A stretch of DNA of 26,227 nt from a virus. Position numbers and translations under genes: made by a program. The notes beneath the pieces are model-generated. The model did not search any database. It was not told the origin of the DNA and saw only the letters and a list, made by a program, of their open reading frames with translations. The stretch is taken from positions 1 to 26,227 of IMG/VR virus record IMGVR_UViG_3300020056_001723; one strand, written 5' to 3'. This document shows, in pieces, positions 9,242-18,524 of this stretch (positions are counted from its first letter, which is position 1; each line of letters opens with the position of its first letter).

Positions 9242-9577
9242 TTAAATATTTACACTAACACCGCAACCGCAAGAGCTCTTTGCCTGTGGGTTGTCTACTA
9301 CTAACATACTACCAGTAAGACTTTCTTGATAGTCAATAGTACTACCTAATATATACATTAAACTGTGACTATCTATTGCGAGAACCTTTCGGTCTGACAA
9401 TTCTATAATTTCATCTGAGTCTTTTATGGGCTCTTCACTACCAAGTTTCCAAAAGTATTCAAACCCAGCGCATCCACCACCTTGCATTCCAAACATTATA
9501 TGAGTTTCATTGTTTTTAGATAAAACATCCAATAGGTACATTTTTGCACTTTCGGTAATTGATAGTACTCTTGTCAT
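9242..9577 (-). CDS. A-type iron-sulfur carrier (IscA/SufA/HesB family)
   Basis: 111 residues, the usual length. The three family cysteines are present: C36 in GGGCAGFEY and C103/C105 in SSCGCGVSV near the end. A-type carriers receive Fe-S clusters or iron from scaffold proteins and hand them to enzymes in the cytoplasm. Such genes are known in ocean T4-like phages, probably to support Fe-S proteins during infection. The ATG overlaps the previous stop as ATGA; the ribosome site is weak, so coupling probably matters. Last gene before a terminator. Confidence 0.9.
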   Translation of the reverse strand: MTRVLSITESAKMYLLDVLSKNNETHIMFGMQGGGCAGFEYFWKLGSEEPIKDSDEIIELSDRKVLAIDSHSLMYILGSTIDYQESLTGSMLVVDNPQAKSSCGCGVSVNI

Positions 9578-9882
9578 TTGTTCTTCTTTCTTAGTTTTTC
9601 TCGCAACGAGTCCATTTCACTACTGGTGTCCTTTTTCTCGTCCCTCTTTTCCACTTTAGTAGACTGTTCCCGCCGTAAGGAATGAATATAGTCTGTTTCA
9701 GTGAGTCCTTTTCTAAGTTCTGCAACTTTTCGTTTAATATCTTCTGTTCTTTCTTGAAGTCCATAGGCTGGTTCACTTCGTTGTTGCTCTAAAAATTCCG
9801 TCCCAATCTTCTGGGAGATCTTGCGTTGACATGAAATCACAACGTTCCATCCACATATCGTAATATCCATCCATTTTGCCAT
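9574..9882 (-). CDS. hypothetical charged coiled-coil protein, start uncertain
   Basis: The second half (about 36-102) is highly charged and helical (LQERTEDIKRKVAELRKGL, then a KLRKKNK end) and ends in ATGA with the Fe-S carrier. The frame has an ATG at 9880-9882 with AAAGGA 7 bases upstream, but that places 110 bases inside the cyclase gene in another frame. A GTG near 9838-9840 would shorten this. A third frame (9591-9776) is also open, but its codons end more often in G or C, so I prefer this one. Function unknown. Confidence 0.5.
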   Translation of the reverse strand: MAKWMDITICGWNVVISCQRKISQKIGTEFLEQQRSEPAYGLQERTEDIKRKVAELRKGLTETDYIHSLRREQSTKVEKRDEKKDTSSEMDSLREKLRKKNK

Positions 9883-11815
9883 CAAATTGTCCTTTCAATA
9901 ACTCGCACAGTTCTATTGCCTTATCGAACTGTTTCTTTCTATAAAACTTTAACATATTTCTGTGTACCAGTTTATACTTTGGCCAATCGGCCCTTTCATC
10001 GTCTAAAACTGTGTATATCGGCAAACCAATACTTTTTCCTTTTACCGCAAGGTCGTCTAATTTTAAATAAAAGAAATCTTCTTTAGTTCTTCTATATGTT
10101 TCTGGGCCAATAATCAACAGTACACCATATGCCTTACACTGTCCCTCTAATCGTGCGGTAGTAGAAACCGAATCACCAAGAACATCATAACTATATCTTT
10201 TAGTCGAACCCATCTCTCCAATATAACCAACACCAGTATTAATACCAGCACCCATACCAACTGGTGGTCTTCCATCGGCAACAAGTCTATCGTTAAACTT
10301 TTCAACCGCCTTTAACATTTCCAATCCTGTTCTTACAGATGTATGTGCGTGTGATTCATCATCAACTGGTGCGTTATGAATATGCATAGAAGCATCACCA
10401 ATATACTTAATTATCATTCCGTTATTTTTTAATACTGGCTCTGTAATTGCATCCATATATCCATTCATTATTTCCGTTAGTCCCTGCACATCATCACCAA
10501 AAGATTCTCCTAGCGGAGTGAATCCTCTCAAATCAGAAAAACATATACTGATCTCTCTTTTCGTACCTTTCTTTACAAGGTCTGGATTATTTTGTAATAA
10601 TTTTACTACAGCAGGCGATGCATATCCCTCAAATTGTTTCTTGATAGCCTGTTTCTGTAAGAACTCATCTAAAAATTTTGCAAGATATCTACTAAGTCCA
10701 ACCAATAGTAAAAATGCAGAAATGGTTGCACCATCAATGAGTAGATTTTCTGTTCTAAATGCATATATCGATCCACCAACAAAACCTACCATAGATACAA
10801 CATAAAATCCTAACCCTAGATATGTCCACTTTGATAATAATATGATAAGAAGTCCTGCAATCACTAATGCACTAATTTCTCCCCACGCCTTTGCGTCTGG
10901 ATGTCTTACTATATTAGATTCATTGAATACAGTTCCTAACATCGCTGCCTGTATTTCGTGTGGCCACACCCCACCTTTCGCAGTAGAAATTGGTTGTGTG
11001 GTTGATGATGCACTAACTCCGACAAATACAACCGCACCATCAAAATTATCTGGCAAATCTACAACACTCGCACTTCTGTATCCCTGCGACCAATCAATCC
11101 AAACTTCTCCCAATTCATTTGTTTGGATAGGCCCATATTGTGGTATTCTAAGTTTATCTACCCCTAATGGTGATAACTTAATTTGGAAGGATTTGTCGCC
11201 GGCAAGTACTCTCAATACTTCCATCGTCAAACTAGGATATAAGACACCACCAGACTCAAAAACTAGTGGAGCTCTTCGTGTAACACCATCAATTTCTGGA
11301 TAAGTATCAACTATCCCTGAACCAAGTGCATAAGTTTCAAGTAATTCAATATTAGATGTGATGCCAGATACACTTGGAATGAGATGCATAAACTCAGAAT
11401 TAATAATTCCAGCGCCAGGGTTGATCGGTTCATTTTTATTCTCCTCAGATCCTATAATACTCAGAATGACTGGATTTTCCATCATTGTTCTTGACAGAAC
11501 TTCGTCCTGCTCAAATCTATCATTTTCACTCATGAGTACATTAAACACAACTAATCCTGCACCTCTGTCGTACAGGTCTTTAATTATATCTGCATATATG
11601 TTTCTTGGAAATGGCCATTGTCCATATTGATTGATAGTTGCATCATCAATATTGACTGTGTAGATATTATTTTCTTGGATTGGTTGATTGACTATAAGAC
11701 TATCGAAGTATCTAAGTCTTAAACTTTCTAATAAATTTGGATTTGTATAGTATCCGTAAGTACATAAAAGAAGTATAATAATACTCCATATGGGAGACAG
11801 TAAGAGTTTTTTCAT
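9773..11815 (-). CDS. CHASE2 class III adenylate cyclase, membrane-bound
   Basis: 680 residues from the ATG at 11813-11815, which overlaps the stop of a tiny gene as ATGA. Order: an N-terminal membrane helix (about 5-22), an exported CHASE2 sensor domain (about 30-305), three membrane helices (about 313-375), a linker, and a cyclase domain (about 420-605). The cyclase has metal Asp428 (FSDLRGFT) and Asp474, Lys470 and Asp544, the adenine-selecting pair, and Arg555. The usual transition-state Asn is Ser551 (GDSVSTTARLE). It would make cAMP from ATP in response to a periplasmic signal, if the Ser permits. A C-terminal helical tail follows. Class III cyclases are very unusual in phages. Confidence 0.9.
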   Translation of the reverse strand: MKKLLLSPIWSIIILLLCTYGYYTNPNLLESLRLRYFDSLIVNQPIQENNIYTVNIDDATINQYGQWPFPRNIYADIIKDLYDRGAGLVVFNVLMSENDRFEQDEVLSRTMMENPVILSIIGSEENKNEPINPGAGIINSEFMHLIPSVSGITSNIELLETYALGSGIVDTYPEIDGVTRRAPLVFESGGVLYPSLTMEVLRVLAGDKSFQIKLSPLGVDKLRIPQYGPIQTNELGEVWIDWSQGYRSASVVDLPDNFDGAVVFVGVSASSTTQPISTAKGGVWPHEIQAAMLGTVFNESNIVRHPDAKAWGEISALVIAGLLIILLSKWTYLGLGFYVVSMVGFVGGSIYAFRTENLLIDGATISAFLLLVGLSRYLAKFLDEFLQKQAIKKQFEGYASPAVVKLLQNNPDLVKKGTKREISICFSDLRGFTPLGESFGDDVQGLTEIMNGYMDAITEPVLKNNGMIIKYIGDASMHIHNAPVDDESHAHTSVRTGLEMLKAVEKFNDRLVADGRPPVGMGAGINTGVGYIGEMGSTKRYSYDVLGDSVSTTARLEGQCKAYGVLLIIGPETYRRTKEDFFYLKLDDLAVKGKSIGLPIYTVLDDERADWPKYKLVHRNMLKFYRKKQFDKAIELCELLKGQFDGKMDGYYDMWMERCDFMSTQDLPEDWDGIFRATTK

Positions 11816-11916
11816 TCTGGTAATTCTCCATCCAATGACTTCCAAATAAACACATGCAGTGATGTGTTTACAATTATTAAAGTTACGAAAAATAAATATC
11901 CCGCTAAAGTCTCCAT
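11812..11916 (-). CDS. tiny membrane peptide coupled to the cyclase (34 aa)
   Basis: A 34-codon frame starting METLAGYLFFVTLIIVN. Residues about 5-25 form one membrane helix, with a short charged tail ending DGELPE. GAGG lies 5-6 bases before the ATG, and its TGA overlaps the cyclase ATG (ATGA). It is the first gene behind a perfect late octamer at 11936-11943. It may be a membrane partner of the cyclase or mainly a leader that delivers ribosomes to it. Confidence 0.65.
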   Translation of the reverse strand: METLAGYLFFVTLIIVNTSLHVFIWKSLDGELPE

Positions 11917-12216: not shown

Positions 12217-12900
12217 TCAATTGTTTCCGTTTATAGTTACCGAGCATCCCGCCGAATTTGTACAATATCCTGTAACACTATAAGAGCCTGCAGATGAAGT
12301 TACATTTTGAGTCAAGTTTAAGGTATATGCACCACCAGAGTTAGTTAGATCTATTGCGGCTGTTGCACTTTGGCTGCCTCGTTGTTCAACATCTACTGTA
12401 TGGCCATCTCCAGTAAGTACAATATCTGTCCATTTCTGGCCACCATTCCCTCTTTGATATAGGTCTACTGTGTTACTGTCGCCCTGTATCTCTACAAAAC
12501 CATCGTGTCCAGCCTTACCCATTTGTATATGTTCTACTGTATTACTATCACCATTTACTATATTTGCTAAGTGGTGTGCTGCACCACCGCCACCACCTCT
12601 ATTGGTATCTGTTTGATAACTTGCAACTGTATTCCCATCACCAGTTACAGTCCAATATGCCTCATGCCCACCAGTTTCGTCACCATCATATGTGTTATCA
12701 TCGTGGATACCTTGCCGTATAGTAATGTCATTATTTGGCCCTGTAGAACTTAGATTAATATAGTTATTTTCACTGCGCTGTTGAATCTCCAAAGTGAGAT
12801 TGTCTCCACTTTGAGTAATATAGATTTCGTTACTACTGACTTTGGGTGATATCGATAGTGTTAGTACCAACACCAAGGCGGTAATCGTATACTGCTTCAT
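12217..12900 (-). CDS. curlin-repeat amyloid subunit 2, exported
   Basis: 227 residues. A signal peptide (about 1-23) leads into a mature start NEIYITQSGDN shared with the other curlin gene. Repeats of the curlin kind follow: GDGNTVASYQ, GDSNTVEHIQ, GDSNTVDLYQ and GDGHTVDVEQ, plus more divergent strands with TGPNND, a Gly-rich turn (GGGGGAAHH) and a C-terminal pair of cysteines (YCTNSAGC). Curlin strands stack as a beta-helix and polymerise on the cell surface after passage through CsgG. The ATG lies inside the FecR gene (68-base overlap), with GGAG upstream. Last gene of the operon. Whether it polymerises is not shown. Confidence 0.85.
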   Translation of the reverse strand: MKQYTITALVLVLTLSISPKVSSNEIYITQSGDNLTLEIQQRSENNYINLSSTGPNNDITIRQGIHDDNTYDGDETGGHEAYWTVTGDGNTVASYQTDTNRGGGGGAAHHLANIVNGDSNTVEHIQMGKAGHDGFVEIQGDSNTVDLYQRGNGGQKWTDIVLTGDGHTVDVEQRGSQSATAAIDLTNSGGAYTLNLTQNVTSSAGSYSVTGYCTNSAGCSVTINGNN

Positions 12901-13957
12901 CTCCCTGCTCCACGTTTATTGTGTATCCATTTTCTTGATGCAATTTCAAATCTAGTCTTTGAGTAACACCAGCATCTTCTCTTATAATTCTCCACATAGG
13001 ATTAATATCTTCTATAGTGATTCTTGTCGTTTCATCATACCCATAAACCCTTTGTGCAAAAAATTCTTCATTTTGTTTATCTAATTCATCTCTAAATATT
13101 TCCGCAAGTGCCAAATTTAACTGATCTAACATGTCGTGTAATAGTTCTTGTAGATAATAATTAGAATCGTGCAATTCAGTTACCCATATATTTTTAATAT
13201 CATCAGTTAATGCATCTTGATCTAAATCATCAAATTCAAGAAAATCTATATCCAGAAAATCAAACATTTTTCTGGCCTTCCTCATAATTTCTTGTTCTTC
13301 TTCCTCATAAGGTGACTTTTTTCTTAACATTAATAAATTATTAATATCGCCTTCAGATATATCTAGTGTAATTGGCGGTAATGGTTTCGACCACATACTC
13401 TTCACAATGGTAGATTGAAACGCCTGAGTCATTATAACAAACCCTGTATCAGTTTCAACCAAAATTTCACCAGTGACACAATAACCATCTATATCACAAC
13501 TTGGCAGTAATGTAATCATACTGCCGCCAATTTCATCAACAACCATAATAAAATCAGTACCCCTTACACTAATCTTTGCACTTGGAGTTCTGATATTAAC
13601 TCTTTGTCTACTGTTTGTGGCGATTTTACCACTTGCGTAACGAATAGTGCCTAATGTAGCCCTCAATCCAAGAGAACCAGTTCCACTATTGGGGTCATAA
13701 ACAAAATCATCTATTAATAGTCTGGTATGTTCTGTCAAATCTACTCTAGTATTATCAATGAAATCTATTCGCATCTTACCACTTTCAGTAACTGCGACAT
13801 CCATAGACTCAACACCTATGCCGTAATCACCAATAATAACATCAGTATCTCTTTCCAATACTCCACTTCCACTCAGGTCAGTTATAGTCCCTGCAGCACC
13901 ATATAGGTTATGTGGAAAACATAACACTAAGAGTAATAAGAAAATGTACCTAAACAT
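12833..13957 (-). CDS. FecR-domain exported protein with curlin-like C-terminus
   Basis: 374 residues. A signal peptide (about 1-20) is followed by a FecR domain (about 22-180): FIDNTRVDLTEHTRLLIDDF, then VNIRTPSAKISVRGTDF and a DEIGGSMITLLP strand. An acidic helical region (about 200-320) follows. The last 40 residues switch to strands ending GTNTIDITQSQ, very like the ITQSG and NTV-type curlin strands of its two neighbours. FecR domains of this kind sit in the periplasm or on the surface and are often encoded near CHASE2 cyclases in bacteria. Here it could anchor or nucleate the fibre. Start joined to curlin 1 by TGATG. Confidence 0.85.
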   Translation of the reverse strand: MFRYIFLLLLVLCFPHNLYGAAGTITDLSGSGVLERDTDVIIGDYGIGVESMDVAVTESGKMRIDFIDNTRVDLTEHTRLLIDDFVYDPNSGTGSLGLRATLGTIRYASGKIATNSRQRVNIRTPSAKISVRGTDFIMVVDEIGGSMITLLPSCDIDGYCVTGEILVETDTGFVIMTQAFQSTIVKSMWSKPLPPITLDISEGDINNLLMLRKKSPYEEEEQEIMRKARKMFDFLDIDFLEFDDLDQDALTDDIKNIWVTELHDSNYYLQELLHDMLDQLNLALAEIFRDELDKQNEEFFAQRVYGYDETTRITIEDINPMWRIIREDAGVTQRLDLKLHQENGYTINVEQGDEAVYDYRLGVGTNTIDITQSQ

Positions 13958-14691
13958 CAGTCTCGTTGTGTTATATTAACGTCTGCGTTATCACCAGAAA
14001 AAGTGGCGTCAATTAAGTTATCATAAATTCCTGATTGGGAAATTTTAAAATTTCCACCGCCACCAGTAATGTCTAGTGTAATACTGTGTCCGTTAATATC
14101 CCCATTTCCAGTTTGATCTATATCAATGTAGTTTCCTGGCGCACTTGTAGAAAGTCCTGTAGTTGCATGTGTGATTGTACCAGATGCAAGACTTGAAGAA
14201 GAATCAACTGTAACAGTGATATCTGCCTCTGTTCCGTCCTGTACTAAATCGATTACATTACCGTCACCAGTAATTGTGAAATCTGCAACTAAATTTTCTG
14301 CGTCATTGTTCTCGCCGATATACATCTGAAATTGGTTATCATCCCCAGTTGTCGTAATATCTAAAGTAACAGTTTCACAGTTTACACCCGAAGTAGTATC
14401 ACAAGTCAAGTCCACTGTATTTGTATCTCCAGTAAATACCCATGTTCCTGTATAAGTATTACCTTTAATTACAGCGTCAATTTCATTGAAATTGCCCGTT
14501 TGGGTAATATCAAATGTCATTGTATCGCCTTGCAATGTCATATCAGTAGTCGAATCACCAATTTTATTGTCTTGTCCATCTTGTACAATATCTAAGTCCA
14601 GATCATCGCCAGATTGTGTAATGTAGATTTCATTAGCGTATACTGGAATAGTGTACAGAAGTGCAAAAATTATTAGTATTTTTTTAAACAT
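13957..14691 (-). CDS. curlin-repeat amyloid subunit 1, exported
   Basis: 244 residues: a signal peptide (about 1-19, ending PVYA) and a mature start NEIYITQSGDD nearly identical to subunit 2. At least six strand units follow, such as ITQTGNFNEIDAVI, TGDTNTVDL, TGDDNQFQMYI, TGDGNVIDLVQ, IDQTGNGD and ISQSGIYDN, with a C-terminal NITQRD. Two Cys (CDTTSGVNC) may bridge. Strongly acidic, unlike E. coli CsgA. It lies directly after csgG with GAGG close to its ATG, the position of a main secreted substrate. Confidence 0.85.
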   Translation of the reverse strand: MFKKILIIFALLYTIPVYANEIYITQSGDDLDLDIVQDGQDNKIGDSTTDMTLQGDTMTFDITQTGNFNEIDAVIKGNTYTGTWVFTGDTNTVDLTCDTTSGVNCETVTLDITTTGDDNQFQMYIGENNDAENLVADFTITGDGNVIDLVQDGTEADITVTVDSSSSLASGTITHATTGLSTSAPGNYIDIDQTGNGDINGHSITLDITGGGGNFKISQSGIYDNLIDATFSGDNADVNITQRD

Positions 14692-14692
14692 A

Positions 14693-15511
14693 TTAGTCCT
14701 CTTGATTTAATTCCATTTTCCAGAGTTGTTTTCTTACTCCACCATAAACTAACTCGATCACGCCCTGTTCTATTGCTGCTCTGACAGCATAATTAACAGG
14801 TTCATTCGATGAAAAGCCGGTTTCAGTTTCTACGAGTTTTGTACCAAGATCTAAAAATTTAAATATATCTGCTCCACTTCGATAACTTGCAATGGTTTTA
14901 TCCGTTGCGATACTCATCAACACCTTACCTGTACTAACACTTACTAGTCGCATAACCACAGTAACAGTATCTATTCTATATTCTGTTTGTGCGCCAACTC
15001 CTAAGTATCTAGCGCCGACACCGCCTGTCGCCGTATTTGAATCATAACCAACCACTCCCCCCTCAAGGATAAGTCCTGCAAAAATCATAGGACTTAGTGG
15101 TTCTGGGCCTCCTGGCCGATTTTTGTCATAGACATCTCTTGTTTGTCTAATCAATTGTCTTTCTTTTATTAAATTGTCCATACCAACACGTTCTACAACT
15201 TCAAACCATGTACCATTACCTACATCTTGAAGTGCCTTTATAACCCAAACCTCTGATCCTTGAGTTACTGCAGAACTTAAACTTGCAATATTAGATGCAG
15301 ATTTTCTTTGTCCAGTCTTATCTAAAAACTGATAAACAGCAATCGTAATTTTTGGCCCATCAATTGGGGGAACCGCCGCAAGACGTTCCTTAATAGGACT
15401 CTCCTGTAGTTCTGGAGAAGTATTAACATCCCACAAAGTTTCAAGACTTTTTTGAGTTGCACATCCAGATAAAACTAAAAGAGAAAATATTAATGGTACT
15501 AATTTTATCAA
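14693..15511 (-). CDS. csgG: CsgG, outer-membrane curli secretion channel
   Basis: 272 residues (E. coli CsgG has 277). A lipobox LSGC gives lipidation at Cys17. The CsgG core follows: ITIAVYQFLDKTGQ, then EVVERVGMDNLIKERQLIR, GGVVGYDSNTATGGVGARYL, VSTGKVLMSIATDKTI and FSSNEPVNYAVRAAIEQGVI, all matching the family. Nine such subunits build a channel that exports unfolded curlin. The pore-loop segment (KSASNIASLSSAV, about 70-82) has no aromatic residue, unlike Tyr/Phe of the E. coli constriction. The start is TTG (15509-15511) overlapping the csgF stop, with GGGGAG 8 bases upstream. Confidence 0.95.
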   Translation of the reverse strand: MIKLVPLIFSLLVLSGCATQKSLETLWDVNTSPELQESPIKERLAAVPPIDGPKITIAVYQFLDKTGQRKSASNIASLSSAVTQGSEVWVIKALQDVGNGTWFEVVERVGMDNLIKERQLIRQTRDVYDKNRPGGPEPLSPMIFAGLILEGGVVGYDSNTATGGVGARYLGVGAQTEYRIDTVTVVMRLVSVSTGKVLMSIATDKTIASYRSGADIFKFLDLGTKLVETETGFSSNEPVNYAVRAAIEQGVIELVYGGVRKQLWKMELNQED

Positions 15512-15969
15512 AAACCAAACTCCCCTGTTGGAATTGTTATTTCAGTAACACTTCCATCTTCTTCAACGACAGTTAGTGTTATAGTACCAGCAATTGGATC
15601 CTTTACCCAAGTTATAGTAGAACCTTCGATATCGGCCGTCCCAGTATTAGAACATGTATCTCCACAATCAGCAAACATTGCATCTACCATCTGTTTAGAT
15701 AATGTTGCATAAATTCGAGATTCAATGTTTCTTAAAAACTTAGCAAGAGTTGTATTTTCAAGTTCTCTCTGAATTCTTGCCGCTTCTGCTTCTGCCTCTT
15801 TTCTTAAATCTTCTTTTCTGTTGTGTTGTAATTGTTCAACACTTAATACATGTGTCGAATAACCATTTCCATAATGGAAGGCGGGATTCTTAAATCCCCA
15901 AGTTAATTCTGAAGCATATAAATTACCGCTCAAAAATGTTAAACCTATTGTCATAAGTATTTTTTTCAT
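15508..15969 (-). CDS. csgF: CsgF, curli assembly factor
   Basis: 153 residues. A signal peptide (about 1-19) leads to ELTWGFKNPAFHYGNGYST, the family's mature start (E. coli has FQFRNPNF), which inserts into the CsgG pore. A helical neck (about 45-95) and a C-terminal beta domain follow (DPIAGTITLTVVEEDGSVTE). CsgF couples secretion to fibre nucleation outside the cell. One Cys pair (CGDTC) is unusual. AGAGG lies upstream of the ATG. The gene is joined to csgG through TTGA. Confidence 0.92.
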   Translation of the reverse strand: MKKILMTIGLTFLSGNLYASELTWGFKNPAFHYGNGYSTHVLSVEQLQHNRKEDLRKEAEAEAARIQRELENTTLAKFLRNIESRIYATLSKQMVDAMFADCGDTCSNTGTADIEGSTITWVKDPIAGTITLTVVEEDGSVTEITIPTGEFGF

Positions 15970-17216: not shown

Positions 17217-18524
17217 CTAATCTATGATGATTGGTCTATCCAATCTTTCTATTTCTCTAACAGTTGCAGCTGCGTCATTCCTATATTTATTGTCATCATT
17301 AATAAGAGATACATCATATCTCACTCTGTTAATTGCATATGCAGTATCCGTAATTTGTCGATTCCCTGCAATATCTTCTGGTATATTTCTAGATGCATCG
17401 CCAAGAATTTGTCCACAAGTAAGTAACGAATTACTATGAAAATTGTCCCAATATCCATAAGACATTATATCATCATGTTCTCCACACACATCATTCCACC
17501 CATGACCAAACTGTGGAAATATATAACCAGAGTTTGGAAATCCTTGATTTTCTGGGCCGTGGGCAAGTCCTATCGAATGTCCGATTTCGTGTAAATCGGT
17601 TTTCCATGTACAAGCTGCCATTGAAACAATAGGATACCCCTCATAAAATCTAGTGTTGGGATATGCAACACCGCAAGTGTTTACATATGTGGTTCCTGCA
17701 CCCAATACAATGTCTGTATTAACTTCTGTTGCAATTTTTTCTAAATTATATAATCCGTGATAATGGGCTATCCAAATTTCTTTGAGTACAAATCTAGCAA
17801 AGACGCCAGAATCTTCATACAGTTTGTTAAATTTTTCAACTCTTGTATTCCACTTCACCCACAATCTAGAAGGGTCGTCATTCGGGTCTATATTTGAAAT
17901 AAGGCCTGGTTCCATGTCATCACCCTCAATATGACGTTCATATTCAAAAATAGTTAATTCAAAATTAACAATAGATTCATCATCTTCACCATAAAAAATA
18001 AATCCTTCTTCTGGTGAATTTCTCGACACCGCATATCCAAGACAATCTACAAGACCTTCATGGGCACATCTTGGTTCATCTTCTATAGTGTAAAGGAATT
18101 CTTCATCATTTAAAATAATCGTACCTTCACCAATTCTTCCATCACCATAAATTAAAAGTGTATACTCATCGGGAGTTTCAACCCGCCCTATTGTTTCTTT
18201 TGTAGTTTCATACCACCAATCTAATATAATATCTTCTACTGGTTCACCAAACTGTTCATATGAAACTTCAACCACAACGGGGTTGAATCTATCACCAGTT
18301 GGCAAAGTCATTTTAAAAACGACAACTGGTTCCTCATAACCACAATCTTCTGATAACTTTTCTTCTACTACATAAGTTCCGCCCTTACCATCGTGGTATT
18401 CTTGAAACTTAGAGTAGTTTTGACACCAATAATCTGCAACTGGTGTCCCGGCTAGGGGATATGATTCCCCACTACTACATGCACTCAAAAAAAGTGCAAG
18501 TACTACAATATACAATCCTTTCAT
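17217..18524 (-). CDS. metzincin-type zinc metalloprotease, lipoprotein
   Basis: 435 residues. The lipobox LSAC places lipid on Cys16. A long Cys-containing N-terminal region precedes a zinc protease domain with HEIGHSIGLAH (H312, E313, H316, H322) and a Met-turn at M354 (DDIMSYGY), the two hallmarks of metzincins. Several cysteines (about C284, C305, C347, C370) suggest disulfides outside the cytoplasm. It would cut proteins at the cell envelope or on the surface. It sits in an operon with a lipase, so the pair looks like an envelope-attack set. The exact metzincin family is uncertain. Confidence 0.85.
   Translation of the reverse strand: MKGLYIVVLALFLSACSSGESYPLAGTPVADYWCQNYSKFQEYHDGKGGTYVVEEKLSEDCGYEEPVVVFKMTLPTGDRFNPVVVEVSYEQFGEPVEDIILDWWYETTKETIGRVETPDEYTLLIYGDGRIGEGTIILNDEEFLYTIEDEPRCAHEGLVDCLGYAVSRNSPEEGFIFYGEDDESIVNFELTIFEYERHIEGDDMEPGLISNIDPNDDPSRLWVKWNTRVEKFNKLYEDSGVFARFVLKEIWIAHYHGLYNLEKIATEVNTDIVLGAGTTYVNTCGVAYPNTRFYEGYPIVSMAACTWKTDLHEIGHSIGLAHGPENQGFPNSGYIFPQFGHGWNDVCGEHDDIMSYGYWDNFHSNSLLTCGQILGDASRNIPEDIAGNRQITDTAYAINRVRYDVSLINDDNKYRNDAAATVREIERLDRPIIID

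Follow-up and report, generated by a model that had tools for sequence, protein, structure and literature searches.

What would a FecR-domain protein do in a phage-encoded curli operon, where its gene sits between two curlin genes and behind csgF and csgG? Curli are sticky surface amyloid fibres. The question arises from a 26,227-nt stretch of viral DNA (positions 1 to 26,227 of IMG/VR record IMGVR_UViG_3300020056_001723; hereafter the window) whose minus strand carries, in order, csgF, csgG, curlin 1, the FecR-domain gene, curlin 2 and a gene for a CHASE2 cyclase (Table 1). The csgF-csgG-curlin 1-fecR-curlin 2 order is kept in essentially every locus with enough flanking sequence, and the cyclase usually belongs to the same gene cluster as the phage curli genes. 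Neither csgE nor csgC was recognised in the operon of the window (ORF list and Pfam). The T8SS/curli operon of pelagiphages and of phage Melnitz is already published (PMC9599517, PMC7029224, PMC9004378); in the passages of these papers that deal with the operon, two give csgA/csgB as missing or unidentified and the third reads FecR as an iron regulator.

Table 1. Features of the curli gene cluster, with positions counted from the first nucleotide of the window.
Feature	Position	Strand	Evidence	Remarks
csgF	15508..15969	-	PF10614 E 9.2e-12	curli secretion/anchoring accessory protein
csgG	14693..15511	-	PF03783 E 6.3e-49	outer-membrane curli pore, lipoprotein
curlin 1	13957..14691	-	PF07012 E 1.6e-5	C-terminus ...NADVNITQRD
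FecR-domain protein with curlin-like C-terminal tail, 374 aa	12833..13957	-	PF04773; phrog_37870 over residues 6-373	
FecR domain, residues 54-142	13532..13798	-	PF04773 E 2.7e-8	within larger beta domain, residues 20-197
helical acidic linker, residues 202-300	13058..13354	-	structure prediction, mostly low confidence	
C-terminal beta tail, residues 302-374	12836..13054	-	AF2 of tail alone	seven strands
terminal strand NTIDITQ	12842..12862	-	curlin kernel N-x-Psi-x-Psi-x-Q	
curlin 2	12217..12900	-	PF07012 E 3.7e-8, three stretches	C-terminal ~48 residues like FecR tail (hhalign)
CHASE2-sensor adenylate/guanylate cyclase	9773..11845	-	PF05226 E 1.5e-34, PF00211 E 9.2e-17	

Near the curli genes and on the same strand, positions 17217-18524 encode a putative lipoprotein metallopeptidase whose metzincin zinc motif reads HEIGHSIGLAH; its reprolysin matches fall below threshold, and it could act on surface proteins. 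An ORF at 9242-9577 resembles, by eye only, an A-type iron-sulphur carrier (IscA/ErpA-like) with CGCG near the C-terminus.

The FecR-domain protein has a three-part predicted architecture. A Pfam scan gave no domain besides FecR, phrog_37870 carries the annotation 'unknown function', and a putative signal peptide was judged by eye at the N-terminus. The first-pass annotation had described the ORF, its FecR domain and its C-terminal end as they stand here, and had proposed that the last 40 residues switch to beta strands. In the predicted structure, residues 20-197 are beta-rich, residues 202-300 form mostly low-confidence helices and seven strands follow (306-308, 313-318, 321-327, 334-340, 345-351, 354-361 and 366-372). 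Strands are thus present at the end of the protein, over about 70 residues (302-374) rather than 40, because the predicted strands run from residue 306 on and place the start of the beta tail near 303. Predicted by itself with AF2 from a 65-sequence alignment, the tail gives an all-beta model of high confidence (pLDDT 92.4, pTM 0.78); because it folds so well without the FecR domain, the tail appears to be a separate domain that need not pack onto the FecR domain.

No solved structure is a good match for this tail fold. A fold search against the PDB returned no solenoid and no CsgA among the matches listed (best Z 3.3), the solved curlin 8c50 being present in the PDB sequence set, and the neighbours found are weak, non-significant and mostly antiparallel beta folds. 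Searching solved structures with a tail profile gave no significant relative; the staphylococcal Map/Eap domains (1yn3, 8d4u) were considered and set aside at non-significant profile E-values of 0.12-0.15. The same tail fold recurs at 17% identity in a FecR protein of an uncultured phage (TM 0.72, probability 1.00, E 0.05). Covariation within the tail (Neff 82) is mixed, with three antiparallel pairs (strands 2-3) together with pairs 21-25 residues apart, the spacing expected of stacked rungs.

The fusion of FecR domain and tail is real, old and universal among the phage curli operons examined. A first search yielded 79 viral loci, and more seeds extended these to 463 sequences whose 3' end is intact; judged over the last 150 residues, 222 of these are distinct. 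The motif [NS]-x-Ψ-x-Ψ-x-Q lies no more than 8 residues from the C-terminus in 217 of the 222, three carry the terminal strand plus a 12-residue extension, and two are interrupted by stops; the tail is present in 220/222. Every phage curli locus examined carries the fusion, including those of the isolated phages HTVC008M and Melnitz, and no intact homologue lacks the terminal strands, even though identity to the FecR protein of the window falls to about 41%. Four tail residues (Y345, Q351, G362 and Q372) are invariant in a 39-sequence alignment. The apparent exceptions, L153/L346 (one contig) and L278, were rejected as tailless homologues: their genes are broken by stops in the linker, and in L153 the downstream frame still encodes the tail. 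The extended tails (L397, L415 and L384) continue beyond the terminal strand with CDxGCSNDxLFx, 12 residues with two cysteines.

Conservation of the motif does not follow from the arrangement of the genes. The FecR and curlin 2 genes overlap by 68 nt (12833-12900), such that the last 22 FecR codons, read in another frame, encode the curlin 2 signal peptide. Among 160 homologues the junction varies from overlapping genes (down to -98 nt) to genes set apart (up to +43 nt), and in 35 loci the overlap is <=4 nt (automated start choice); 159/160 have [NS]-x-[IVC]-x-[IV]-x-Q at their end. Because the motif stays constant while the length of the overlap varies, the tail is not a by-product of gene overlap, and the overlap was rejected as a source of the motif, which is equally constant in loci without it.

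The tail is restricted to phages in the material searched. Its profile gave 0 matches in 398 proteobacterial genomes, except for two phage-derived contigs binned in one genome. A bacterial origin of the fusion was rejected: the bacterial matches listed reach at most profile positions 1-229, and the tail profile matches phage contigs only. The first-pass annotation had also suggested a look at bacterial FecR proteins beside csgG, and none was found in the 19 kb surrounding three alphaproteobacterial curli loci. Bins labelled Rhodobacteraceae, Pirellulales and Flavobacteriaceae hold the phage curli operon (L083, L084, L085 and L086); these are probably phage contigs binned with bacteria.

The end of the tail resembles curlin strands, as the first-pass annotation had suggested. 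The curlin kernel is defined as N-x-Ψ-x-Ψ-x-Q in the relevant passage of PMC10192328, and the terminal strand NTIDITQ fits it. There is one C-terminal copy, with N or S in first position, preceded at a distance of 21 residues by the degenerate Y-T-I-N-V-E-Q. The tails of 67 non-redundant homologues contain the kernel pattern 67 times, whereas residue shuffling yields a mean of 3.4 and a maximum of 9; the rest of the protein has it 7 times. The last ~43 residues of the tail align with the last 60 of curlin 2 at an hhalign score of 24.7 (P 1.2e-4), above the maximum of 20.7 reached in 450 permutations of single, double and fourfold column blocks. This profile alignment is collinear, C-terminus to C-terminus, and the C-terminus is picked first when the tail profile is compared with the whole of curlin 2; the similarity is modest (probability 45-55%). 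The terminal strand motif also ends all 52 non-redundant curlin 1 homologues, the C-terminus of curlin 1 lying one or two residues past such a strand. A Pfam curlin repeat in the tail was rejected, since PF07012 matched 0/39 homologues outside the FecR domain (hmmscan, E up to 10), and an internal 21-residue repeat was rejected with an hhalign score no higher than those of permutations. Judged from sequence, the likeness is probably one of common descent or of mimicry of a curlin end, and not of membership in the repeat family.

Curlin 2 is itself variable. With lengths of ~110 to 500 aa across loci, it may serve as a variable tip or adhesin. A C-T-N-x-x-G-C cysteine pair precedes its last strand in most loci (window positions 12217-12260), and the second curlin of HTVC008M (L081:7067-8392) combines a PA14 domain with curlin repeats (PF07691 E 2.7e-6, PF07012 E 5.2e-8).

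The FecR half matches the PupR signalling domain (6ovk; Z 11.1, 111 residues, rmsd 2.6) and, through residues 19-113, the anchoring domain of MpAFP (5ix9; Z 7.2 over 73 residues), which Foldseek returned with a probability of 1.00 and an rmsd of 1.1 over 62 columns at an E-value of only 0.019. As modelled, this half shares its fold with the MpAFP domain, which lies at the N-terminus of the M. primoryensis adhesin and serves in cell-surface anchoring. The NCBIfam model retention_LapA did not match the phage FecR protein (E up to 0.1). Among the bacterial matches to the FecR profile are short secreted proteins and regions near the start of very large ORFs, of which some give weak LapA retention-module matches.

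An anchor-type FecR domain joined to a subunit-like C-terminal domain makes a fibre base or tether plausible, rather than an iron regulator, and the likeliest role of the FecR-tail protein is that of anchor or base of the phage fibre, with a probability of roughly 0.4. In this reading the protein would be exported and would serve the phage curli system as an adaptor. Its N-terminal beta domain of FecR type would fold in the periplasm and be the module for retention or anchoring, at the CsgG-CsgF pore or beneath it; the helices would act as a spacer, and the C-terminal beta tail, with its curlin-like end, would dock with curlin subunits and so tether, cap or seed the fibre. Because only its C-terminal face would be free, the protein could serve as an end (base) subunit only, and never as an internal one. 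We infer its location at the pore, its contact with curlins and its anchoring function from these features; nucleation is the least supported part. The earlier proposal that the fusion could anchor or nucleate the fibre is supported in part: it stands with respect to the anchoring-domain fold, the conserved fusion and the curlin-like, self-folding tail, and falls short with respect to nucleation and membership of PF07012. The two outcomes it had named as refuting did not appear, as every intact homologue has the strands and the tail can fold without the FecR domain. Its further suggestion that the protein acts in place of CsgB is unsupported, since the part of CsgB could also fall to either curlin of the operon.

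Divergence among loci is consistent with the anchor or base reading. In partial correlations of distances across 41 loci, with FecR-domain divergence held constant, the tail tracks curlin 1 (partial r 0.50) more closely than csgG (0.23), csgF (0.30) or the cyclase (0.32), and the excess for curlin 1 over the other genes is above zero in 97.5-100% of bootstrap samples. With tail divergence removed, distances of the FecR domain correlate with those of csgG and csgF (r 0.54). This pattern suits a protein that meets the pore at one end and the fibre at the other and, given the shared operon history of these genes, is suggestive only. In a more elaborate version, which we regard as doubtful, a folded periplasmic retention domain with its curlin-like end threaded through the CsgG-CsgF pore would form a plug that, in place of a CsgB subunit, bolts the fibre to the pore; it would be wired to the CHASE2 cyclase through the FecR domain and would represent a phage-specific class of amyloid base proteins.

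Ranking next after the anchor or base is a strong rival, unlikely in absolute terms, in which the fibre is sensed and not anchored: the FecR domain would be the periplasmic partner of the CHASE2 cyclase, the tail a receptor for curlin or fibre, and cAMP/cGMP would report the state of secretion. The cyclase does lie in the phage curli gene cluster, and of ten bacterial loci whose short FecR proteins come closest to the phage one, 5 have a CHASE2 protein within a few kb, a share that is not unbiased because the ten loci were chosen by similarity to the phage protein. The bacterial neighbours are cyclases and one SpoIIE phosphatase, and short FecR proteins near CHASE2 proteins with such differing outputs (L193, L194, L196, L200 and L201) suggest a general pair in bacteria. 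This pairing points to signalling, as does an operon of FecR-LysM and a CHASE2 histidine kinase that is linked to Burkholderia biofilm formation in a passage of PMC5192318. Against sensing, FecR and tail are kept in loci that have no cyclase within 5 kb downstream (L015, L074), the survey passages of PMC9599517 report FecR always and the cyclase only often, and the divergence of the tail follows that of curlin 1 more closely than that of the cyclase. It is a good deal less probable that the protein stays in the periplasm as a chaperone or gate, its tail binding unfolded curlins, blocking early polymerisation and delivering them to CsgG in place of CsgC/CsgE. That csgE and csgC went unrecognised in the operon of the window, that passages of PMC9599517 note the absence of CsgE, and that the sequence reveals a signal peptide and no further membrane segment would all suit such a role; fold searches showed no likeness to CsgE or CsgC, although such searches are no test of absence, and a chaperone has no need for a subunit-like terminal strand.

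Slightly less probable again is that the tail, though a conserved beta domain, has no relation to curlins, and that the N-x-I-x-I-x-Q strand arose by convergence in a beta-rich exported protein. The missing Pfam curlin match, the mostly antiparallel character of its nearest, non-significant fold neighbours and the lack of a significant solved relative for its profile agree with convergence, but a collinear similarity to the curlin 2 C-terminus that beats all 450 permutations, and the occurrence of the tail in curli operons only, argue for a link to curlins. The reading proposed in the literature, an iron-responsive regulator, is the least probable and by a wide margin. In FecR iron-signalling anti-sigma regulators, a sigma-binding portion in the cytoplasm is followed by a single membrane span. 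The phage protein has just three residues before its hydrophobic signal segment and therefore lacks a cytoplasmic anti-sigma part, and what it shares with PupR is the periplasmic beta domain alone (residues 50-180). A FecR Pfam domain is present and the gene is so called in passages of PMC9599517, but FecR domains occur also in surface adhesins and anchoring domains, and an iron regulator leaves the tail unexplained.

The anchor or base reading can be set against several known systems. The operons published for pelagiphages and Melnitz have the same genes in the same order as the window, FecR included; their published descriptions, as far as the relevant passages go, leave FecR hypothetical or read it as an iron regulator and do not describe a link between its tail and curlins. 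A search of the openly readable literature combining FecR, curlin and CsgG found no paper, and in the passages of the phage-curli literature the curlin-like tail is an undescribed feature of a known system. E. coli CsgB is both nucleator and anchor; it nucleates the major subunit and depends on CsgF. Like the phage tail, CsgB has a Ψ-x-Ψ-x-Q strand at its end, in its case one residue before the C-terminus (...MAIRVTQR), whereas it is built of curlin repeats and has no FecR domain, and the tail has no curlin-repeat match. The degenerate last repeat of CsgB is implicated in contact with CsgF in a passage of PMC10192328. Bacterial FecR-CHASE2 pairs resemble the phage cluster in that a FecR domain neighbours a CHASE2 protein, and differ in that the bacterial FecR proteins have no tail and, in the ten loci, no adjacent curli genes were seen. 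To our knowledge, retention modules are known from type I secretion and not from CsgG. Passages of PMC13090378 give their make-up as β-strands and then a helix, and those of PMC12077191 state that they fold inside the cell and, being unable to pass the channel, hold adhesins. The retention domains of RTX adhesins (MpAFP 5ix9, LapA) share with the phage protein an N-terminal FecR-like beta domain, a helix and an outward part, but RTX adhesins use type I secretion through TolC-like pores and carry huge passengers. The FecR-curlin-like fusion, universal in the operons examined, is a candidate fibre base for ocean-phage curli, by which the question of whether abundant ocean phages build surface amyloid becomes directly testable on one protein; if the anchor or base reading is true, the fusion would be a second way of tethering amyloid to a secretion pore.
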